Positions 6,503 through 26,356 of a stretch of 34,830 nucleotides of DNA are shown piece by piece. The stretch's first letter is position 1. Each line of letters opens with the position of its first letter. This DNA is from Herpetosiphonaceae bacterium (lineage in GTDB: Bacteria > Chloroflexota > Chloroflexia > Chloroflexales > Herpetosiphonaceae), in assembly GCA_013538855.1 (NCBI GenBank), contig JABXJS010000284.1, forward strand, positions 1 through 34,830, given 5' to 3'. The translations under genes and the position numbers were made by a program. Under the pieces are notes generated by a model, which saw only the letters and a list, made by a program, of their open reading frames with translations, made no database searches and was not told where the DNA came from.

Positions 6503-7870
6503 GTGCAGCTGCCACGACCCAGCGTTGTTGCTTGTGCGCTGCCAGAGCTGCATGCTGCGCGCATGCAGCAGCCGTACACCATGCTGCTGCACAGCGCGCC
6601 AACCCATCCGCTTGGGCGCTGGACGCTGCTTGCCGAGCAGCCCTGGCAGGTCGCCGTGATCTACGGCTCCACGGTGCATGTGCACACAGCCACCAGCAAC
6701 ACCACGCTCAGCGGCGATCCATGGGCGATTATGGCGCAGCTCTGCGCCCCCTACCGGCAGCAGACGCATCCTGAACACCCCTGCCCTGGCGGCGTGCTTG
6801 GCTATCTCGGCTACGATCTTGGGCGGCTGAAAGTTCGCCTGCCAGCGCAGCCAGATCTGGTCGGACTGCCTGATGCGGTCTTTGGCTGGTATCGTCAGGT
6901 GATCGCCTGGCGCAGCGATGCCACCAGCGCGCTGCTTGGCTGCGCCGAGCACGCGCCAACCAGCACGGTGGCCCCAGCGCTGCCCCTGGCCCCAAGCGCG
7001 CCAGCGCTGAGCGCCACGCTTGAGCGCAGCGCCTACCTCGCGTGCGTGCGCCAGATCAAAGCCTACATCGAGGCCGGCGATATCTATCAGGCCAACATGA
7101 CCATGCAGATGCAGGCGTGCGCCAGCGACGTGCCATGGAGCGTCTACCAGCGGCTCCAGGCGCGCACAGCCGCACCGTTTGGGGCCTGGATCGCGCTGCC
7201 AGAAGCGACGGTGCTCAGCGCCTCGCCGGAGCGCTTTCTGTGGTGCTCAGCCAGCGGCTATGTTGAAACGCGCCCGATCAAGGGCACGCGCCCGCGCGGC
7301 CAAACCCCAGCGGCCGACGCAGCCCAGGCCAACGATCTCTACACCAGCCCCAAGGAGCGCGCCGAAAACTTAATGATCACCGATCTGCTGCGCAACGACA
7401 TCGGCCAAGTCTGCCAGATCGGCTCGGTGCACGTGCCGGCGCTCTGGCAGGTCGAGACGCTGCCGACCGTGCATCACCTCGTCTCAACAATCAGCGGTCA
7501 GCTTGACCCCCGCTACAGCGCCTGGGATCTGCTGCGCGCATGCTGGCCGGGCGGGTCGATTACCGGCGCGCCAAAGCGGCGGGCGATGGAGATCATCGCC
7601 GCGCTAGAGCCAGTGCGCCGCGGCATCTACTGCGGCTCCATCGGCTACTGGGGCTTTGATGGCAGCATGGACACCAGCATCGTCATCCGCACGCTGGTCG
7701 AGCATGCTGGCCGCTACACCTGGGGCATCGGCGGCGGCATTGTGGCCGACAGCGACCCCGAGGCCGAGTACGCCGAGGCGCTGCTCAAGGGCGCGGCGCT
7801 TGAGGCTGCCCTGCACACAGAATCAGCTCAGCCAGCGCTCAGGTTGTCAAGCACTGAAAACAGGCTATAA
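6503..7870 (+). CDS. pabB: Aminodeoxychorismate synthase component I
   Basis: This 455-aa chorismate-utilising enzyme converts chorismate plus ammonia to 4-amino-4-deoxychorismate in folate synthesis. PIKGT at residues 258-262 carries the lysine typical of PabB, where anthranilate synthases have alanine; this argues for pabB over trpE. Other signatures are GDIYQANMT, SPERFL, SPKERAENLMITDLLRND, GGSITGAPK and GGGIVADSDPEAEY. The GTG at 6503 is chosen because AGGAG sits eight bases upstream, inside the end of the zinc-ribbon gene; the frame is open further up but overlaps that gene. No pabA or pabC lies nearby. The glmS promoter overlaps its stop codon. Confidence 0.9.
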   Translation: MQLPRPSVVACALPELHAARMQQPYTMLLHSAPTHPLGRWTLLAEQPWQVAVIYGSTVHVHTATSNTTLSGDPWAIMAQLCAPYRQQTHPEHPCPGGVLGYLGYDLGRLKVRLPAQPDLVGLPDAVFGWYRQVIAWRSDATSALLGCAEHAPTSTVAPALPLAPSAPALSATLERSAYLACVRQIKAYIEAGDIYQANMTMQMQACASDVPWSVYQRLQARTAAPFGAWIALPEATVLSASPERFLWCSASGYVETRPIKGTRPRGQTPAADAAQANDLYTSPKERAENLMITDLLRNDIGQVCQIGSVHVPALWQVETLPTVHHLVSTISGQLDPRYSAWDLLRACWPGGSITGAPKRRAMEIIAALEPVRRGIYCGSIGYWGFDGSMDTSIVIRTLVEHAGRYTWGIGGGIVADSDPEAEYAEALLKGAALEAALHTESAQPALRLSSTENRL

Positions 7871-7871
7871 T
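7844..7871 (+). promoter_or_regulatory. Sigma-70-like promoter for the glmS transcript
   Basis: TTGTCA (7844-7849), a 16-base spacer and a perfect TATAAT (7866-7871) overlap the pabB stop. Transcription would start near 7878, about 100 bases upstream of the ribozyme cleavage site. The leader also has a 7-bp hairpin (GGCTGTG/CACAGCC) between about 7880 and 7907. Confidence 0.7.
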
Positions 7872-7980
7872 GCACTGATGGCTGTGTATGGTGATGATCA
7901 CAGCCGTGGTTAATCATACGTATTACTAGCAGCAATCCGCAGCTTTTAGACAGCCAAAGGAGGCGCAGCCACCCAATCGT

Positions 7981-8221
7981 AGCGCTTGGCCTGAGCACGC
8001 TCAGGAAACGAGGTAGAGGTTCCCCACCGCGAGGTGGGTGCTAACTGGATCAGCCGCGCGGCGGGCGCGCTAGCGGGACGGAATGGCCTTCCACCGCTAG
8101 GCGCGCAGCACCGCAGGCGACGGCCCCAGGAACAGCGAATAATCAGCGGATGCCTCTCAGGTGCACCACCACCTGCAAGCACAGCGGCAAAACCTGGCGG
8201 CGACGTCGGGCACAAACGCTG
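7981..8221 (+). ncRNA. glmS ribozyme (glucosamine-6-phosphate-activated) with a large insertion
   Basis: This leader of glmS matches the glmS ribozyme core. The cleavage site would be A7981/G7982 (A|GCGCTTGG). P1 is 7990-7995/8000-8005. The conserved ACGAGG is at 8008-8013. P2.1 is AGAGG 8015-8019 with CCTCT 8153-8157. P2.2 is CGCT 7983-7986 with AGCG 8145-8148, a compensated change from CGCC/GGCG in Bacillus. GCGGATG is at 8146-8152. P3 is 8158-8163/8170-8175, followed by GCAAG. P4 is CAGCG 8182-8186 with CGCTG 8217-8221. P4.1 is 8193-8199/8204-8210 with a GCGA loop. Known glmS ribozymes self-cleave when glucosamine-6-phosphate binds, lowering glmS mRNA. An extra domain (8020-8132) is inserted in the P2 region. 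The AUCGA-type segment of the usual core is not clearly identifiable. The RNA ends about 265 bases before the glmS ATG. Confidence 0.85.
8020..8132 (+). other. Structured insertion domain inside the glmS ribozyme
   Basis: This 113-base segment is closed by TTCC (8020-8023) pairing with GGAA (8129-8132). It holds a hairpin CCACC-GCGA-GGTGG (a GNRA tetraloop, about 8024-8037). A GTGCT/AGCAC stem (8038-8042 with 8107-8111) encloses a long hairpin whose arms are 8065-8076 and 8094-8106, 12 bp with one bulged G, topped by GGAA/TTCC. The nested pairing suggests a folded domain and not random filler. Confidence 0.6.
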
Positions 8222-8486
8222 AGCAGTGGCGAGTTCGATAGCAGCAGACTTGGCAAGCGGGCACTGGTGCCGCGTGGCTTGGTCTGGCTGCTGTTTGTTT
8301 TAACCCGGTTTTTATGCTGCTGCAGCAGCAAGCAAGCGCCAGCTCACAGCCAGCCAGCGCCACAGCGAGTGCACAGGGTGGCGGCACAACATCGCCGCTG
8401 CATACGCACAGCAGGCCGCGCTGCCCCAATACCAGCGCGGTGCTGGCGGCAAAGTGACTGGAGCTAGCGTTATAAGGAGCACACCT
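8222..8486 (+). other. Long glmS 5' leader between ribozyme and start codon
   Basis: This is about 265 bases of noncoding leader. It contains a self-complementary GCTGCTGCAGCAGC near 8318 and GC-rich imperfect repeats. No second promoter or protein-like frame is convincing. After ribozyme cleavage this would be the 5'-hydroxyl end of the glmS message. Confidence 0.5.
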
Positions 8487-10331
<1,845 letters not shown>

Positions 10332-17316: not shown

Positions 17317-20300
17317 CTACGGCTCTCGGACCGCGAAGAGCGTGCCAGCACTGCGGCCGAAGACCTCAGGCTGGTACATCTCGGCGGCGACGGCGGGCAG
17401 CGTCTGGAACGTGCCGGGCGTGGCGGCGCGGGCCAGATAGGTGTAGGTGTAGGTGCCGCGCGGCAGCTCGGTGGCAAACAGCGCCACGCGATTGTCGTGG
17501 ATGGACGTGCGGTTGAAGTACCACCAGTAGGGCCGCTGATCGGCGCTGGCAAACTCAGGCGCAGCGGCGGCGGACGTGACCGTCTTGAGGCTGGTGTCGA
17601 GCGCCTCCAGGCCAGCGGGCAGCATATCCTCGACCATGAGGTACTGCACATCCTCGGGCACCTGGAGCGTCAGGCGCACCTGCACCACATCGCCGAGGTT
17701 GGCCTGCGTGATCAGCTGGCCTGTCGGGCTGAGCGTCGCCGAGTCGACCGCGCTGTACTCGCGCTGGATAATCAGGCCCTGGTCTAGCGGCTGCACCGCG
17801 GCGGCATCCTGGTAGTAGCGCATGCGCAGCGTGTAGTAGAGGCGGCCTGCACCGGTGGCGTTGTTGCTCTGGCGCTCAAGCGTGAGCTGGCTGCCGTCGA
17901 GCTTGACCTTGGCCAGATCGAACACAACGCTGATCGGCTCGTCCAGGTTGGTGCGGTTGACCTGGCCTGCGCTCAGCTCAGCGCCGTCGAGCGCGGCACG
18001 ATACGTGTAGTCGGCCTTCAGCTCGCCGCTCTGCGCCAGGTACTCGGACAGGGCCATCAGCGTGAGCGCGGACTCCTGGGTCGTGCGCCAGTGGCCGCTC
18101 TCGCGCAGGCTCATCAGATAGCGCACCGCATTGGGGATGAGGAAGTTGTTGGGATCGACGCGCACCAGCGCCTGCAGCGCCAGCGCCGTCGTGCGAGCGG
18201 TGCTGCTCATCGTCCAGCTATCGACGCTGGCATCCTCCCAGTGGGCGGTGGTGGGGCTAAGCAGCGCGCTGCTCATCAGATCGGCGGTGAGCGTCTTGAC
18301 GCGCTCGTCGTTCTGGCCAAGCTGCTGCAGCGTCATCAGCAGGTAGGCGCGGCCATAGATGTTCAGCTGCGTGCGCTGCTCGTAGAGCTTGACCGTGCGG
18401 CCGCGATCGGGCTGGCCGACCTCGGCGAGCACAAACAGGACATAGGCGCGCGCATTGGCGCGCCAGCTGGCGACTGCGCCATCTAGCTCCGCGCCGTTGA
18501 GGGCGCTCTGAAGATACTGCAGGGCCTTATCCAGCACGCTCGCATCGACGCCGTAGCCAGCGCGCTGCGCCTCGTGGAGCGCCTGGACGACATAGGCGGT
18601 CAGGTAGGGCGCGCTCTTGTCGTTGGCCCACCAGCCCCAGCCGCCGTCGAGCTGCTGGGTGGCGTAGAGGCGCTGCAGGCCCGCGCTAAGATTCTGGTCG
18701 AGCTGCGCCTTCAGCTCGGCGTCCTCCAGCCCAAGCTGGTTGAACAGACGGTAGGTGACGATGTTGGGCAGGAAGCGGCTGACCGTCTGCTCGGTGCAGT
18801 CGTAGGGATAGGCGGTGAGGTAGTCGAGGCTGCTCTGGATGCCAGCGGCCAGCGACGGCACCAGCTCCAGCGTGGCCTCGCCCTGGGCTGCGCCGCCGAC
18901 CTGTGCCGCCGTAGGCAGCATCAGCGTCTCGACGACCGGCTGGCCGAGCACCTGCCCGGCGGTCGCGACGACCTCGGGCGTGGTGAAGCGCTGCACAGGC
19001 AGCGTCTGCTCGACGGCATCCTGCAAGCCAGCGCCGGAGACCACAAACAGCAGCGTGGTTGATCCAGCCTGCGGCACATCCACCGTCCAGCGCACAACCG
19101 TGCGGTCGTTGGCCGGAACCGAGATCTGCTGCTGCGCAGGCGTGTTCAGCTTGAGCGTGCCTGCATCCAGCTTAACATTGGCCGCGATGGCCTGACTGGT
19201 GGTGTTCTGGACCACGGCCTGCAGCACCGCCTGGTCGCCGACGGTCAGGAAGCGCGGCAGCGTTGGGCGGATGAGCAGCGGGCGCGCGGCCACAATCTCG
19301 CTGGTGCCGCTGCCAACTTTGGTGTCCTTGGTGATCGCGCTGGCGGTCATACGCCAGGTGGTCAGGTTGTCTGGCAGGGTCACGCTGACCTGCGCGGTGC
19401 CGTCGGCGCTGGTGACAAGCAGCGGATTCCAGTAGGCGGTATCGGGCATATTCTGGCGAATCAGCAGGTCGGCGCTTTGTGCGAGGCCACCGCCGCCGCC
19501 CTTGATGCTGGCCTGATAGCGCAGCGTCACGCGCTCGCTCAGTGTGGTCAGCGAGCTAGCGGTAAACGTTGACAGCGGGCGCTTGCTGTAGAACGCAGCG
19601 GCGAGCGAGGGATTCGGCGAGTCGGCCAGGGCCAGCACGGCCTTATCGACCAGCGCCAGCTGCACCGCGCTGCTCACGCCGCGGCCCTGGTAGTCGGTGG
19701 TCTTGATGGTGTAGGTAACCTTATCACGCGGGCCGACCTCGGTTTGATCGGGCGTAACCGTCACCGTGAGCTGCTGCTGCGCCATCGAGACCGGCAGATT
19801 AACCGCGCCGAAGCGCAGGTCCGGCACCGGATCGTCGGCGGTCATCGGCTTGACCAGCGTGATGCTGACATAGACGTTGGGCGCGTAGTCGGCGGTGAGC
19901 GGCACATCAAGCAGCGCGGTGGTATCGTCGATGGTGAAGACGCGCTGCTCCAGCACCGCGCCACGCTCGATGGTCATCAGCGCTGTCATGCCCTTGTAGG
20001 GCGCGGGCACCAGCACTTTCGCCGTATCGCCAGGCTGATAGGCCGACTGATCGGCGATGATGTCGATGCTGTTCGACGAAGACATGCCCCAGAACACATC
20101 GCCGCCATAGACCCAGACGAACGCGCTCGATGTAATGGTGTGGCCCTGAGCGTCCTTGGCGCTGGCGCGGATGCGATAGGAGCCGCCAGCGGCGGGCGTG
20201 AAGGCCACCTCGGCGCGACCCTGAGCGTCGGTGGTGGCGGGCAGCGTCTGCACCAGCGTATCGGTGTAGCGCGAGGTCCAGTAGAGCTGGCCATCGGAGC

Positions 20301-23300
20301 CGCGCTCGCGGACGCTGAACCACTCGTGCTGGTAGATTTTCACCTCAAGCGCCTGGTCAGCGAGCGGCTGATCAGCAGGCGTCAGCGCGATCAGCGCCAC
20401 CGACTGCTCGTCGCCGACCTTCGTGACATAGCCGTTGGGACGCAGGCCCACATAGAACGCGCCAGCGTGCACCGTGACCACGGCCTCGCCGGCGATCACC
20501 TGGCCGTCAACATCGGTGATCTCGACGCTGAAGATGAGGCGCTGGCTCCGATCCACCGGGCCGAGATCGCGCGGCAGCGGCAGGCTCAGGTGGCCCTGCG
20601 CATCGGTGCTCGCCGTGCCCTCGGCCAGCAGCTCCTGGCCGCTGTTGTCGCTGCCATCCCAGCGATAGTAGGCATAGGGATCGTCCAAATCCTGGAAGGT
20701 AAATCCAGGCGCGAACTCGCTGGTAAAAGCGAACGGGCGGCTCAGCAAGCGCCAGCGCACCGGGGCATTGGCGACCGCGCCGCCGGAGAAGTACTGGGCG
20801 GCCACATCCATGGCGATCGCTTCACCGCGCACAACCTCGGGAGCCGAGGGTGTCACGCTGACATCGAAGGCGGGCTTGCGGTACTCGGCCACCGTAAACC
20901 AGCCGACGATCAGATCGTCCCTGGCGGCGGACAGGCTGGCAATCATGCGGTAGTCGCCAACCTTGGCGTTGCTATCGAGCGTGAGCGTGGTGCTGAACGT
21001 GCCGAACTCGCTCAGCGGCAGGTCGACATCGAGCAGCTTCGTGTCCTCTGGATCGGCGACCACAACGTGCACAGCCGACTGGGCGGGCAGGCGGTACTGC
21101 TCGTTCTCCAGCTGCCGCAGCACACCCTGCATGTTGACCACATGGCCCGGCCGATAGAGCGGACGATCGGTGCTCACGCTGCCAACCAGCTGATTGAGCT
21201 TGGACTGCGAGGGCAGGTTGAAATCCCACGGGCTAATGCCATCGCGCCAGTCGGTGGAGGCGAAGCTAAAGCCGCCGTCCTGCGTCGACCAGAGCGCGAT
21301 GTACTCGTAGGCGTTAGGTGCATCGAACGGCACGTGCAGGATGCCATCTTGATCGGTGCGTCCGAGCGTCTGCGGCGTCTCCTGCGAGTAGCTCATGGCC
21401 TGGATGGGCAGGTTGGCGACCGGCGCGCCGCTCTGCAGATCGACAGCCCAGACGAACAGTTCGCGCTCGGAGCGCTTGACCGTCAGGGCGTAGGGGCTGA
21501 CGACCATCAGCCGCCGATCAGCGGCGTCGGTGCCAGCGCTGCCCAGCGTGACGTAGTAGATGCCCGGATCGAGCGTGCCGACATCGACCGCCACGAGCTG
21601 CTCCTGATTGCGTGTGCCGCTGACGGGGATGGTGCCCTCGGCGAGCGGTGCAGTGGGCGCGTAGCTGTTCCACTGCTCATAGTCATTGAGCAGGCGCACA
21701 GCCTGCTGCGCATCAAGCGCATAGAGCGCATAGCTGATTGAGGCCAAATTCACCTGGCGCACCGCAAGCTGGGTCGGCACATAGGCGTTGTAGGCGGCGA
21801 TCTGGCGGCTGCCAAGCAGGAACAGGTACGGGTCGAGCGGGGCCGTGCGGTAGCTGAGCACCTGATCGGCCCCCAGCGTCACGCCGTAGGGATCGCTGGC
21901 GTCGCCGCCGATGGTCACGCGGTACTCCGTCTCCGGCTCGGCGTCGAAGCTGAGCGAGAAGTTTGTGCTGTAGGTATAGGTGTAGACCTCGCTCGGGGCA
22001 GGCTCGATCTTCAGATTACGCTCGACCGAGGCCCAGTCCATCGCGGTGCTGAACTCCAGCTCCACCGAGCCGCCGTAGCGGGTGGTCACACCAGCGGCTG
22101 GCGAGGAGCTGACGAGGGCGGGCAGCGGCGCGGCGCGGAAGGCCAGCAGGTACGGGCTGCTCAGTGTGTCGGGGCTAGCGGCGGCGCGCGCAGAGGGCTG
22201 GATGGTCAATTGATAGTCGTGACCGCGCTCCAGCGGCGCACTAGGCTGGAAGATGGCCACGGCGTCGTTGATCGTCAGCGTACCAGCAACCGCCGCGCCG
22301 CTGGTGACATCCTGCAGGGCGAGGGCGCTGCGCAGGCTCTCCAGCTGCATCGGCTGATTAAACGTGATGCTGATCGCCGCTGTCGGGGCCACATCCTGCT
22401 CACCGCTGGCGGGAAGACCGCCGAGCACCGCCGGGCGAATGCTGGTGAACGACCAGGTGTAGGCATCCTTGAGCGTGCCGCCGGTCTGGTCCTGCAGGCC
22501 AGGCTGGATGCTGACGCGATAGGTCGTGGCTGGCTGGATGCTGCTGGTCGGCGAGTAGACATAGGTGCGTGTGTCGATCCAGCGGCCAGTGCCAGGCAGC
22601 GCCGGCGTGATGCTGAGCGGCTGCGGCAGCGTCGCCTGGGCGTCGATCGTGGTCAGCGCCACAACCGGGTGGTTGAAGCGCACGCTGATGCGGCGGGTGG
22701 TTGTCAGCACCTCGACAGCATCGGGCAGCGGCTCGACCTGCTCAACAGCCAGATCGCCGATCACATCGAAGCGCCAGGTCAGCGGCTGCGCGTTGATCGC
22801 GGTGCCAGCCACCGTGGTGATGCCGGGCTGGAGCTGGGCCTCATAGCTCACGCCGCGCTCAAGCGCCACGGCGGGCATAAAGCGGAAGCCGCCATCGAAC
22901 GCCTCAACCTTGCCAGTGATCGGCGCGCCGCCAGCGACGGACTGCAGCACAAAGTGCGCGCTGGCCGACTGCACATCGACATCCTCGGCCAGCCGCACCT
23001 CGATGGGAGCCTGCGCGGGAACCTCGGTGGCTCCATCGAACGGCCGGGCCTCGCGCAGCACAACGGCGGAGGTGGTAAAGGCCCAGACCGTGGGCTGCTT
23101 CAGGCGCACGCTGCCATCGCCAGAGATATCGCTGCGCACCATCACGCTGTAGTCCGTTCCCGCCTGGAGGCGTGGCTCGGGATAGAAGCCGAACATGGTC
23201 GGCGAGAGCCAGCGGCCCACGCCAGGGGTTTCCGGCGTGAGCGCCAGCGGCTGTGGCAGGCTATCGGCGAGCGCAGGCTGCTCGGCGGCGGCGGCGATGC

Positions 23301-23802
23301 TGTCGGCGGAGACGACCGGACGGTCAAACTCGACCGTGATCGGCGTGTTCAGCGCAATATCGTGCGTAGCGGCGGTTGGCGCAACATGTACCACCGTCAC
23401 GTAGGGCACTGTGCTAAAAGCGATCGTCTGCGCCTGCGCGCTGGAGCGGCCAAGAATATTTTTGACGCCTGCGTTGATCGTCAGGCGATAGTTTGTGCCG
23501 TAGGCTAGCTCGGCGGTTGGCTGGATGAGCACCGCCTTGCCATCGGAGCGCACACTAAACGCAGCGGGCGGATCGAGCGTCACCGCCGCTGCGACTGAGT
23601 CGGCACGCACCCACTGGTCAAACTCAATGCGGATGCTGCTCTGCGGATTAAATGCCTGACTCGCGTTGGCCGGCGTGATCTGCACCACCGTTGGGCCAGC
23701 CAGCAGCAGCGGACCAAACACCACGGCGAGGCCCAGCACAAGCAGGCCCAGCACGGCGGCGACGAGCAAACGCGGACGGAGATAAAAAGGCTTGCGTTGC
23801 AT
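17317..23802 (-). CDS. Bacterial alpha-2-macroglobulin with thioester and N-terminal Ig-like repeats
   Basis: This 2161-aa envelope protein is a protease trap. Residues about 10-33 form a hydrophobic signal-anchor without a lipobox cysteine. About six SbsA/Big_5-like Ig modules follow, each with a P-x-x-x-A start and a (I/V)x(I/V)xF(D/N/S)xxx strand. Macroglobulin domains come next, with TDRPLYRPG near residue 880, and an A2M domain with DTAYWNPLLVTSADG. The thioester motif CTEQ is at 1669-1672, so a covalent trap is expected. A helical thioester domain (GGWGWWANDKSAPYLTAYV) and a C-terminal macroglobulin-type domain (YWWYFNRTSIHDNRVALFA) complete it. Start 23802 is chosen for AAGGAGAGG upstream and the membrane segment. 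It begins 16 bases after pbpC, the pairing known for bacterial A2M (yfhM/pbpC in E. coli). It is longer than the E. coli protein (about 1650 aa), mostly through the Ig part. Confidence 0.95.
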   Translation of the reverse strand: MQRKPFYLRPRLLVAAVLGLLVLGLAVVFGPLLLAGPTVVQITPANASQAFNPQSSIRIEFDQWVRADSVAAAVTLDPPAAFSVRSDGKAVLIQPTAELAYGTNYRLTINAGVKNILGRSSAQAQTIAFSTVPYVTVVHVAPTAATHDIALNTPITVEFDRPVVSADSIAAAAEQPALADSLPQPLALTPETPGVGRWLSPTMFGFYPEPRLQAGTDYSVMVRSDISGDGSVRLKQPTVWAFTTSAVVLREARPFDGATEVPAQAPIEVRLAEDVDVQSASAHFVLQSVAGGAPITGKVEAFDGGFRFMPAVALERGVSYEAQLQPGITTVAGTAINAQPLTWRFDVIGDLAVEQVEPLPDAVEVLTTTRRISVRFNHPVVALTTIDAQATLPQPLSITPALPGTGRWIDTRTYVYSPTSSIQPATTYRVSIQPGLQDQTGGTLKDAYTWSFTSIRPAVLGGLPASGEQDVAPTAAISITFNQPMQLESLRSALALQDVTSGAAVAGTLTINDAVAIFQPSAPLERGHDYQLTIQPSARAAASPDTLSSPYLLAFRAAPLPALVSSSPAAGVTTRYGGSVELEFSTAMDWASVERNLKIEPAPSEVYTYTYSTNFSLSFDAEPETEYRVTIGGDASDPYGVTLGADQVLSYRTAPLDPYLFLLGSRQIAAYNAYVPTQLAVRQVNLASISYALYALDAQQAVRLLNDYEQWNSYAPTAPLAEGTIPVSGTRNQEQLVAVDVGTLDPGIYYVTLGSAGTDAADRRLMVVSPYALTVKRSERELFVWAVDLQSGAPVANLPIQAMSYSQETPQTLGRTDQDGILHVPFDAPNAYEYIALWSTQDGGFSFASTDWRDGISPWDFNLPSQSKLNQLVGSVSTDRPLYRPGHVVNMQGVLRQLENEQYRLPAQSAVHVVVADPEDTKLLDVDLPLSEFGTFSTTLTLDSNAKVGDYRMIASLSAARDDLIVGWFTVAEYRKPAFDVSVTPSAPEVVRGEAIAMDVAAQYFSGGAVANAPVRWRLLSRPFAFTSEFAPGFTFQDLDDPYAYYRWDGSDNSGQELLAEGTASTDAQGHLSLPLPRDLGPVDRSQRLIFSVEITDVDGQVIAGEAVVTVHAGAFYVGLRPNGYVTKVGDEQSVALIALTPADQPLADQALEVKIYQHEWFSVRERGSDGQLYWTSRYTDTLVQTLPATTDAQGRAEVAFTPAAGGSYRIRASAKDAQGHTITSSAFVWVYGGDVFWGMSSSNSIDIIADQSAYQPGDTAKVLVPAPYKGMTALMTIERGAVLEQRVFTIDDTTALLDVPLTADYAPNVYVSITLVKPMTADDPVPDLRFGAVNLPVSMAQQQLTVTVTPDQTEVGPRDKVTYTIKTTDYQGRGVSSAVQLALVDKAVLALADSPNPSLAAAFYSKRPLSTFTASSLTTLSERVTLRYQASIKGGGGGLAQSADLLIRQNMPDTAYWNPLLVTSADGTAQVSVTLPDNLTTWRMTASAITKDTKVGSGTSEIVAARPLLIRPTLPRFLTVGDQAVLQAVVQNTTSQAIAANVKLDAGTLKLNTPAQQQISVPANDRTVVRWTVDVPQAGSTTLLFVVSGAGLQDAVEQTLPVQRFTTPEVVATAGQVLGQPVVETLMLPTAAQVGGAAQGEATLELVPSLAAGIQSSLDYLTAYPYDCTEQTVSRFLPNIVTYRLFNQLGLEDAELKAQLDQNLSAGLQRLYATQQLDGGWGWWANDKSAPYLTAYVVQALHEAQRAGYGVDASVLDKALQYLQSALNGAELDGAVASWRANARAYVLFVLAEVGQPDRGRTVKLYEQRTQLNIYGRAYLLMTLQQLGQNDERVKTLTADLMSSALLSPTTAHWEDASVDSWTMSSTARTTALALQALVRVDPNNFLIPNAVRYLMSLRESGHWRTTQESALTLMALSEYLAQSGELKADYTYRAALDGAELSAGQVNRTNLDEPISVVFDLAKVKLDGSQLTLERQSNNATGAGRLYYTLRMRYYQDAAAVQPLDQGLIIQREYSAVDSATLSPTGQLITQANLGDVVQVRLTLQVPEDVQYLMVEDMLPAGLEALDTSLKTVTSAAAAPEFASADQRPYWWYFNRTSIHDNRVALFATELPRGTYTYTYLARAATPGTFQTLPAVAAEMYQPEVFGRSAGTLFAVREP

Positions 23803-23818
23803 CTTCTGACCTCTCCTT

Positions 23819-26356
23819 TTATTGACTAGCAACCCAGATGCGGATTGGACGGCTGGTTTGAGGTTGATTTTGGGCATCGTGGGCAACAACGGTGAACTCA
23901 TGTGCGCCTGGCTCCAAGCGCCAGAATGTGCGATAGGGCGGCGCGCTCAGCGTGGCCAGCGGCTCGCCATCCACAAACAGTGTCAGCGCACGCACATTGG
24001 CCGGAGCCTGCGCCTCGACCACGATTTGCTGGCGCTCGGCGGGCACCGCGCGGCTGAGCGCATACTCGCTGCCAGCGCTCGGCTGCACCACGGCGAGCGC
24101 GGCCGGGCTGTGCTGCGGCGGCGGAGCAGCCTGCGCCGGATCGGCGGCCACCGCAGACTCGCAGTAGACGCGCGGCGGGCGCGGCAGGCCGCTGGCAAGC
24201 GCCCAGGACTCCGCCTCTGCTGGCAGCAGGCGATAGGTGCGCTCGACGCCGAGGGCGGCGGGAGCCTGCGGCGGGATGCGGCAGTTGTGCAGCGGATCGA
24301 CGCGCATCAGCACATGGGTGTCGTCGATCCTGGTTGGCTGTGTGCCAGCGACAAAGCGCTCCAGACGCGTGGCGGGGCAGCTTGGGCCAGGCAGCATGCC
24401 GCCCTCGACGCAGATCGTCTGTTCGACGATGCCTGGCGGGCGAGCGAACGGCTGCGGCGGCAGGCCACGGTGGGCGGCAAGCATCACGGCGTGCCAGACG
24501 GGGCCAGCGCCGGTGATGCCGCTGATCGCCTCCATCGGTGTGCCATCGGCATTGCCAACCCACACGCCGACCACACGATCCGGCGTGTAGCCGACGGTCC
24601 AGTTATCGCGCCAGTTGGTGGTGGTGCCGGTCTTGACGGCGGCAGGCCGATCCACATCCAGCACGCTTGAGAGACCAAAGGCGCGGCTGCGCGCGTAGCG
24701 ATCGGACAAGATATCGCTGATCAGATAGGCGATCTCGGGCGCGACGACCGGCTGCGGTGACTGGAGCGGCGCGAGGCTCGGATCGAGCGCAATCGGCTGG
24801 CCGCTGGCGTCGCTAAGCGCGATCAGGGCGGTTGGGCGATGGTAGGTGCCAGCGCTGGCGAAGGTCGCAAACGCCCCAGTCAGCTCTAGCAGCGTCACCT
24901 CGCCGCCGCCGAGGGTCAGTGCGAGGCCATAGCGGCCAGGCGAGCGGCCAAGCGTTGAGATGCCCAGGCGCTCGGCCATCTCCAGCAGCGCTGGCAGGCC
25001 GATGGCATCGAGTGTGCGCACAGCGGCGACGTTGGAGGAGGTGGCCAGCGCCTCGCGCAGCGCCAGCGGCCCGTGAAACGAGCGATCATAGTTTTGCGGC
25101 TCGTAGGGCGGGCCATCGCCAGCGCTGAAGCTCGAAGGAATGTCGAGGATGCTGGTGGCAGGCGTCCAGCCGCGCTCCAGCGCTGCGGCATAGGTGAGCG
25201 GCTTGATCGCCGAGCCAGGCTGGCGCAGGGCCACAGCCGCGTTGACCTGGCCCTGATAGCGCGCATCGCCAAAGTTGGGGCTGCCCACCATCGTCAGGAT
25301 CGCGCCGGTGTGGGCATCGAGCACCACCACTGCGCCGTTGTGCACCGCGTGGCTGGGGCCGAAGCCGTGCGGCGTCGAGAGCCAGTCGATCTGCTGGCGC
25401 AAGCTCTGCTCGGCGTCGGCCTGGAGGCCAGCATCGAGCGTTGTGGTGATCGTCAGGCCGCCGCGAAAAACGGTGTCCGCGCCGAGCACCGGCACCAGCT
25501 GATCGAGCACATAGTTCACAAAGTGCGGCGCGCGCATCGGCGCAGCAGCGGCGGCAAACTGCAGCGGCTCGGCCTGCGCCTGCACCGCCTGATCGGCGCT
25601 GATCAAGCCGAGCTCGACCATGGCCGCCAGCACATCGGCCTGGCGCGCCTTAGCTGCATCTAGGTTGGTGAATGGATTGTAGTCGGCGGGGGCCTGCGGC
25701 AGGCCCGCCAGCAGCGCGCACTCGGCCAGATCCAGCTCGCGCACCGGCTTGCCAAAAAAGTACTGCGCAGCGGCCTCGACGCCATAGCTCGTGCCGCCGT
25801 AGTAGATCTGGTTCAGATAGAGCGCCAGAATCTCATCTTTGGAGTAGGTGTTGGTGAGCTTGAGCGCCAGCGTGGCCTCGCGCAGCTTGCGGGGGAGCGA
25901 GCGCTCCTGCGCCTGACTGGGATCAAGCAAGAAGTTGCGCGCCAACTGCTGCGTGATCGTCGAGCCGCCGCCGACCACCGCGCCGCTGCGCAGGTTAGTC
26001 CAGGCGGCGCGCGTGATGCCGCGCAGGTCGATGCCGCTGTTGGCATAGAAGGAGCGATCCTCAATGGCGATGGTCGCCTGGCGCAGTGCCAGCGGAATCT
26101 CGGCCAGCGCCACTGGCTGCTGATAGCCGGTCAGCGGATCGGCCAGCGCATACAGCAGGGTGCCATGGCGATCAAGGATGCGCGTATTGCCGATAGCCGC
26201 GTGCGCACGCAGCTGCGCAGCCGAGGGCAGCGGCGTCGTCGCCCACAAGTAGCCGCCGACCAGTAGACCGAGCAGCAGCAGCAATGCCAAGCCGCGCAAG
26301 CTCCAGCGCAGCGTGAAGCGCAGCCATGGCCGCAAGCGGCGCACACCAGCACGCAT
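23819..26356 (-). CDS. pbpC: Penicillin-binding protein 1C (bifunctional)
   Basis: This 845-aa class A penicillin-binding protein polymerises and crosslinks peptidoglycan. A membrane anchor spans about 19-40. The GT51 glycosyltransferase domain has catalytic E99 in IAIEDRSFY and GGSTITQQLAR at 130-140. The transpeptidase has S382-x-x-K385 (SAIK), S440-S-N442 and K575-TGT. The C-terminal 80 residues form the Ig-like BiPBP_C domain typical of PBP1C (LFVDGEPLATL). AGGAGG lies six bases before the ATG. It is cotranscribed with the A2M gene, suggesting coupled wall repair and protease defence. Two 38-bp repeats lie upstream. Confidence 0.96.
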   Translation of the reverse strand: MRAGVRRLRPWLRFTLRWSLRGLALLLLLGLLVGGYLWATTPLPSAAQLRAHAAIGNTRILDRHGTLLYALADPLTGYQQPVALAEIPLALRQATIAIEDRSFYANSGIDLRGITRAAWTNLRSGAVVGGGSTITQQLARNFLLDPSQAQERSLPRKLREATLALKLTNTYSKDEILALYLNQIYYGGTSYGVEAAAQYFFGKPVRELDLAECALLAGLPQAPADYNPFTNLDAAKARQADVLAAMVELGLISADQAVQAQAEPLQFAAAAAPMRAPHFVNYVLDQLVPVLGADTVFRGGLTITTTLDAGLQADAEQSLRQQIDWLSTPHGFGPSHAVHNGAVVVLDAHTGAILTMVGSPNFGDARYQGQVNAAVALRQPGSAIKPLTYAAALERGWTPATSILDIPSSFSAGDGPPYEPQNYDRSFHGPLALREALATSSNVAAVRTLDAIGLPALLEMAERLGISTLGRSPGRYGLALTLGGGEVTLLELTGAFATFASAGTYHRPTALIALSDASGQPIALDPSLAPLQSPQPVVAPEIAYLISDILSDRYARSRAFGLSSVLDVDRPAAVKTGTTTNWRDNWTVGYTPDRVVGVWVGNADGTPMEAISGITGAGPVWHAVMLAAHRGLPPQPFARPPGIVEQTICVEGGMLPGPSCPATRLERFVAGTQPTRIDDTHVLMRVDPLHNCRIPPQAPAALGVERTYRLLPAEAESWALASGLPRPPRVYCESAVAADPAQAAPPPQHSPAALAVVQPSAGSEYALSRAVPAERQQIVVEAQAPANVRALTLFVDGEPLATLSAPPYRTFWRLEPGAHEFTVVAHDAQNQPQTSRPIRIWVASQ

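Follow-up and report, generated by a model that had tools for sequence, protein, structure and literature searches.

An additional folded domain at the P2/P2.1 joint of a glmS ribozyme from Herpetosiphonaceae and its conservation in Chloroflexota

The stretch of DNA analysed here (the window, 34,830 nt from a Herpetosiphonaceae genome of 6.3 Mb) carries a glmS gene whose product is 78-81% identical, over its full length, to its counterparts in 7 genomes from this family. The ATG of this gene, at 8487, lies ~250 nt downstream of the end of a match to the Rfam glmS ribozyme model (RF00234), which spans positions 7970-8234 of the forward strand with 50.0 bits, above the gathering score of 37 (E 7e-9, cmscan), aligns all 167 model positions and leaves 121 nt extra in the loop that follows P2. 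In a scan with all Rfam families, RF00234 was the only one to exceed its own cut-off in the window. Further upstream, a promoter-like site agrees with 11/12 consensus positions (0.3 such sites were expected in shuffled sequences, and the agreement is with the consensus only) and overlaps the end of a chorismate-binding gene. Given the model match, the glmS gene downstream and the promoter-like site, the observation of an earlier note, made from the letters of the sequence, that the glmS leader holds a glmS ribozyme is real and rightly placed; the element is a member of the known glmS ribozyme class, of which the extra domain makes it a variant. The gap between ribozyme and glmS (8241-8301) contains a strong hairpin followed by TGTTTGTTTT, a terminator-like arrangement that, if active, could halt transcription upstream of glmS. 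Elsewhere in the window, the gene of a bacterial alpha-2-macroglobulin of 2194 aa (17317-23901, reverse strand) adjoins that of a penicillin-binding protein whose C-terminal domain is of the PBP1C type (23819-26356, reverse strand), which is a known pairing. A search for a second ribozyme in the window genome gave 11 places at which TCRGCGGANGCC occurs, one of them being the window ribozyme; the two further exact TCAGCGGATGCC sites that were inspected had no ribozyme context.

Table 1. Features of the glmS leader and gene in the window
Feature	Position	Strand	Basis and remarks
Promoter-like site TTGTCA-16-TATAAT	7844-7871	+	Consensus match
Predicted cleavage site, between A and G	7981-7982	+	Rfam alignment
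P2.2 5' strand, CGCU	7983-7986	+	Pairs with AGCG 8145-8148; four Watson-Crick pairs
P1 hairpin	7990-7995/8000-8005	+	Sequence and Rfam alignment
ACGAGG	8008-8013	+	C8009 G8010 A8011, P2.1 5' strand; G8013, conserved active-site G
P2, AGAGG/CCUCU	8015-8019/8153-8157	+	Rfam alignment
Inserted domain, 113 nt (UU, hairpin A, linker, hairpin B, GAA)	8020-8132	+	Alignment, folding, relatives
UUC	8020-8022	+	Possible junction stem of 2-3 bp with GAA 8130-8132
Hairpin A, CCCACC-GCGA-GGUGGG	8023-8038	+	GNRA loop 8029-8032; 6/6 pairs changed on both sides in relatives
Conserved linker UGCUAA	8039-8044	+	Alignments
Hairpin B	8045-8129	+	Basal stem CUGG/CCAG (8045-8048/8126-8129) with long imperfect extension; varies among relatives
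AGCGA, counterpart of AUCGA	8134-8138	+	Alignment with relatives
AGCGGAUG, P2.2 3' strand and joining segment	8145-8152	+	Sequence, Rfam alignment
P3 hairpin	8158-8163/8170-8175	+	Rfam alignment
P4, with A-rich internal loop AAAAC/ACAAA	8182-8186/8217-8221	+	Rfam alignment
P4.1	8193-8199/8204-8210	+	GCGA loop (GNRA) 8200-8203; Rfam alignment
Shine-Dalgarno-like AAGGAG	8474-8479	+	Sequence
glmS, glutamine--fructose-6-phosphate aminotransferase, 614 aa	8487-10331	+	Pfam SIS and glutamine amidotransferase domains

The core elements that had been named from the sequence were all recovered at their places by sequence and Rfam alignment (Table 1), including the cleavage strand A/GCG at 7981-7984 (the slash marks the cut), with the active-site and P2.1 roles within ACGAGG assigned from homologous residues (PMC11602151). 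P2 is paired in 99.6% of cells among the sequences aligned to the model, with double changes in 3/5 pairs. In its predicted cleavage site, P1, P2, P2.2 and putative P2.1 of the double pseudoknot, P3, A-rich P4 loop, P4.1 GNRA loop and location before glmS, the window element is like the ribozymes of Bacillus subtilis and Thermoanaerobacter tengcongensis; it differs from them in having AGCGA instead of AUCGA, CGCU/AGCG instead of CGCC/GGCG and a folded domain of 113 nt in the P2/P2.1 joint, where ordinary copies have a few nucleotides. The P3.1 pseudoknot is not known from all glmS ribozymes.

The insert starts right after the P2 5' strand and stops just ahead of AGCGA, and since it is flanked by these two elements it belongs to the P2/P2.1 joining segment, that is, between the P2 5' strand and the P2.1 3' strand, and not between the P2.1 and P2.2 strands where it had been placed before. 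In B. subtilis, the CGA within ACGAGG pairs with the UCG within AUCGA to give P2.1, while P2.2 joins the cleavage strand to GGCG (PMC11602151, PMC7125110). Folding of the inserted stretch beats that of 196/200 shuffled sequences (z -2.8). Among relatives, the consensus order is P2, UU(C), hairpin A, (N)GCUAA, hairpin B, GAA and (C/A)AUCGA, in which hairpin A has 5-7 bp and a tetraloop that is mostly GCGA or GCAA. Constraint falls on the length of hairpin A, on its loop and on the junction letters, about ten unpaired letters of the three-way junction being nearly invariant, whereas hairpin B is unconstrained and ranges from a few to ~100 nt, being much shorter in Chloroflexus and Roseiflexus than in the window's family. 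The loop of hairpin A is of the GNRA type in ~85/122 rows and different in ~30% of copies, which means that a tetraloop contact would not be universal, nor was a receptor for this hairpin identified. Hairpin B loops seem to resemble one another in the window (8059-8115) and in the copies L033, L036 and L086, with UGGCC or UAGCC between GGAA-like and UUCC-like arms, and a loop contact of this similar long hairpin B loop in the window's family is possible. That the insert is a mobile or repeated element was rejected, as the window genome has one full copy; the second match there covers 27 nt within a low-complexity stretch that looks unrelated.

The two hairpins are supported by strong covariation. 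In an alignment of thirty copies, changes on both sides of the helix were seen in 6/6 pairs of hairpin A and in 6/6 pairs of hairpin B, and the covariation score was 0.520, against 0.203 in shuffled alignments and at most 0.136 with slid partners. A covariance model spanning ACGAGG to P2 (R1) was built only from relatives, leaving the window out, and found the window domain with 64.8 bits (E 4.6e-12). For 54 sequences the score rose to 0.735 (0.220 shuffled, at most 0.176 slid), in an alignment that was made with the model and is hence biased to its structure. Shuffles, covariation and model thus bear out the folded domain of about 113 nt that the earlier note had described. Its proposal that the domain is closed by a four-pair TTCC/GGAA helix did not survive: in the 54 sequences this helix scored 0.128, below the 0.163 of a one-column slide, and it was rejected for want of covariation above the slid controls, the C's and G's that follow UU/AA being part of hairpins A and B. 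What remains is a possible short junction stem, with nearly invariant UU/AA and a third pair that is broken in 10/54 sequences; because the UU/AA pairs hardly vary, they are uninformative for or against it. Conservation of pairing in the leaders of relatives, which had been proposed as a check, is strongly borne out for hairpins A and B and is not supported for the four-pair closing helix.

The insertion is found at the same place, with 44-141 nt, in every glmS ribozyme detected within Chloroflexales, including those of Roseiflexus, Chloroflexus and Oscillochloris, and in each of the nine genomes from the window's family; some Chloroflexales genera have a glmS without a recognised upstream ribozyme. 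Ten copies inspected from other orders of the window's class had no insertion at the P2/P2.1 joint, and R1 matched nothing in those orders; in the sister-order copies L002-L008 the joint is no longer than a few nucleotides (GGCUCGAUCGA in L002, GGCUUAUCGA in L006). One sister-order ribozyme (L010, match 1501-1681) has no insert at this joint and instead shows an additional hairpin at another site, after AUCGA and before UCGGCGG. Across the phylum, R1 matched 71/400 of the genomes drawn, many of them in other classes, and in a second Chloroflexota class, probably Anaerolineae, the domain was present in 209/396 genomes. A search of 84,980 species with a DNA pattern, too narrow to pick up the second-class copies, returned 20 true copies, all from Chloroflexales or unplaced Chloroflexota. 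Five other pattern matches (Maribacter, Paucilactobacillus and three more) were set aside as chance, and R1 does not match them. The extra domain is a conserved, clade-wide trait in many Chloroflexota and not an oddity of one genome, contrary to the earlier implication that it was peculiar to the window sequence. Five glmS copies of the second class (L148, L150, L153, L155 and L160) have the domain and no P4/P4.1 visible by eye; a full-length Rfam alignment was still obtained for those that were scanned.

It could be argued that the insert is a neutral, functionless variable insertion, because at some positions riboswitches often accommodate long stem-loops that are not conserved (PMC2258182), and both the variable length of hairpin B and the sister-order ribozymes that do without the domain would suit this reading. 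We consider it unlikely, since the length and pairing of hairpin A have been kept despite numerous double changes and the junction letters hardly vary across two classes, where neutral sequence would drift. Slightly less probable still is that the insert is a second sensor, an aptamer gating the ribozyme by another ligand. The conserved three-way junction with its nearly invariant unpaired letters would fit a sensor, as would the position of the insert beside P2.1, a helix that contributes to the cofactor pocket (PMC7125110), but the conserved letters are few and junction-like, and a comparison of the insert with Rfam gave no credible other family and no aptamer match. Moreover, the same domain precedes glmS, glnA, glutamate synthase and aminotransferase genes; serving such varied genes, it offers no distinct target pathway that would hint at a second ligand, though glutamine is common to most of them.

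The segment ahead of P2.2 bears on whether the window ribozyme may be active at all. The AUCGA segment, earlier called not clearly identifiable, is present as AGCGA and stands in register with the AUCGA of relatives in the alignments; G8135 C8136 G8137 would form the P2.1 3' strand, with two pairs intact and A.G as the third instead of A-U. P2.1 residues matter in catalysis (PMC7125110), so the activity of the window ribozyme could be lowered by this pair. The same AGCGA recurs in the other large genomes of the window's family, from its sister genera, in two genomes of another family (f2) and in a single copy of the second class, and such recurrence makes it a maintained variant. As for P2.2, its change from CGCC/GGCG had been read as compensatory, and the relatives bear this out in a stronger form: among 101 copies unlinked to glnA, C at position 5 of the cleavage strand goes with G at the partner position in 17 and non-C with non-G in 84, with no off-diagonal case. 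Where the partner is A, the cleavage strand is mostly AGCGCAUG (63 copies), in which U6 is able to pair with A and A5 is bulged, and in the window strand, AGCGCUUG, either U5 or U6 could pair. An earlier survey found no covariation in P2.1 or P2.2 (PMC2258182), and the Chloroflexota relatives now supply it for the outer end of P2.2. That the element is a decayed, non-cleaving relative surviving merely as an untranslated spacer, as the A.G pair and an unusually long leader with a terminator-like hairpin might suggest, is very improbable, because the remaining core helices and signature loops are all intact, AGCGA is maintained among relatives and P2.2 has a compensated U-A pair.

We therefore regard the window element as, most probably, a glucosamine-6-phosphate (GlcN6P)-dependent glmS ribozyme of a Chloroflexota sub-type that bears a conserved extra domain, probably a structural arm, between P2 and P2.1. 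By analogy with the family, plentiful GlcN6P would lead to self-cleavage between A7981 and G7982, and cleavage would cause the glmS message to be lost. The domain would turn P2 into a three-way junction, in which hairpin A, of fixed length and usually GNRA-capped, would act as a rigid arm alongside the double pseudoknot and be kept in place by the conserved junction letters UU, GCUAA and GAA; hairpin B would be a tolerant, variable outer arm. Since the length, loop and junction letters of hairpin A are conserved and hairpin B is variable, the domain most likely braces the P2/P2.1 junction and may aid folding of the pseudoknot. For the core of the B. subtilis ribozyme to fold correctly, peripheral contacts to P2.1 and a contact of a GNRA loop with P1 are required (PMC11602151). 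Of the two roles envisaged in the earlier note, stabilisation of the fold is thus the one that we favour on this pattern of conservation, and a second sensor is without positive evidence.

Genes other than glmS are also preceded by the domain. R1 matches twice in many genomes of the second class, with one match upstream of glmS, and in 17 cases the nearest recognised downstream gene, of glmS and glnA, is glnA. Seven of these 17 copies lie 140-408 nt upstream of it (L147, L149, L151, L152:432-515, L154, L156 and L164). The other ten lie 2.2-2.7 kb upstream with intervening genes, which, where read, encode an Ada-like regulator/methyltransferase and a transporter, and for these ten, control of glnA is a less certain reading. 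The further copies listed are L141, L143, L158, L179, L213, L216, L217, L219, L222, L223, L224 and L225, among which L143 and L158 have the gene order of those ten on contigs that end ahead of glnA. Pfam confirmed glutamine synthetase in the one glnA tested. When ten non-glmS loci were scanned, two glnA-linked copies passed the Rfam glmS cut-off (L151, 47.7 bits; L154, 46.6 bits), two were just under it and the more divergent ones scored low or went undetected. Position 4 of the cleavage strand is a purine in 19/19 glnA-linked copies (AGCG[GA]CUG) and C in 100/101 of the others. We define the glnA-associated sub-type by this purine together with a downstream glnA; the window, having C at position 4 and glmS downstream, falls outside it. 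All 19 variants permit the pairs C2-G, G3-C, C5-G, U6-A and G7-C with the purine bulged. In the T. tengcongensis core, the C4G change is highly detrimental in the usual register, and rescue experiments found that bulges shifted inward raise activity (PMC7125110), an inward-bulge shape that the natural glnA variants all allow.

Copies with an ordinary core and the insert stand upstream of glutamate synthase (L145 and L229), of a DegT/DnrJ/EryC1 aminotransferase (L162, L193 and L197) and of an FAD-linked oxidase fusion (L227). GlcN6P is a classical cumulative feedback inhibitor of E. coli glutamine synthetase, and regulation of glnA by GlcN6P is reasonable for that reason. Whether an unrecognised Chloroflexota sub-type with this three-way-junction domain has been recruited to nitrogen assimilation, with the bulge-4 variant on glnA and ordinary-core copies on glutamate synthase and DegT, appears to us evenly balanced. 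If it has, GlcN6P or another end product would feed back on the supply of glutamine through RNA cleavage.

A literature search, which did not reach the 2011 survey by McCown, Roth and Breaker, found neither the inserted domain nor the glnA association described, and an earlier description is possible. That survey reportedly includes glmS variants of Deinococcus-Thermus that, like the window ribozyme, have additional stems in the core, and it is said to have located nearly all glmS ribozymes before glmS. Although the glmS ribozyme is regarded as very uniform, Chloroflexota possess a phylum-level sub-type of it in which an extra domain lies beside the active site. Several insert-bearing copies score under the Rfam cut-off, and a covariance model of the domain could complement the present Rfam model. 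The sub-type is natural material on how peripheral domains tune a ribozyme, and the relatives of the window also show repeated association of the ribozyme with glutamine synthetase.
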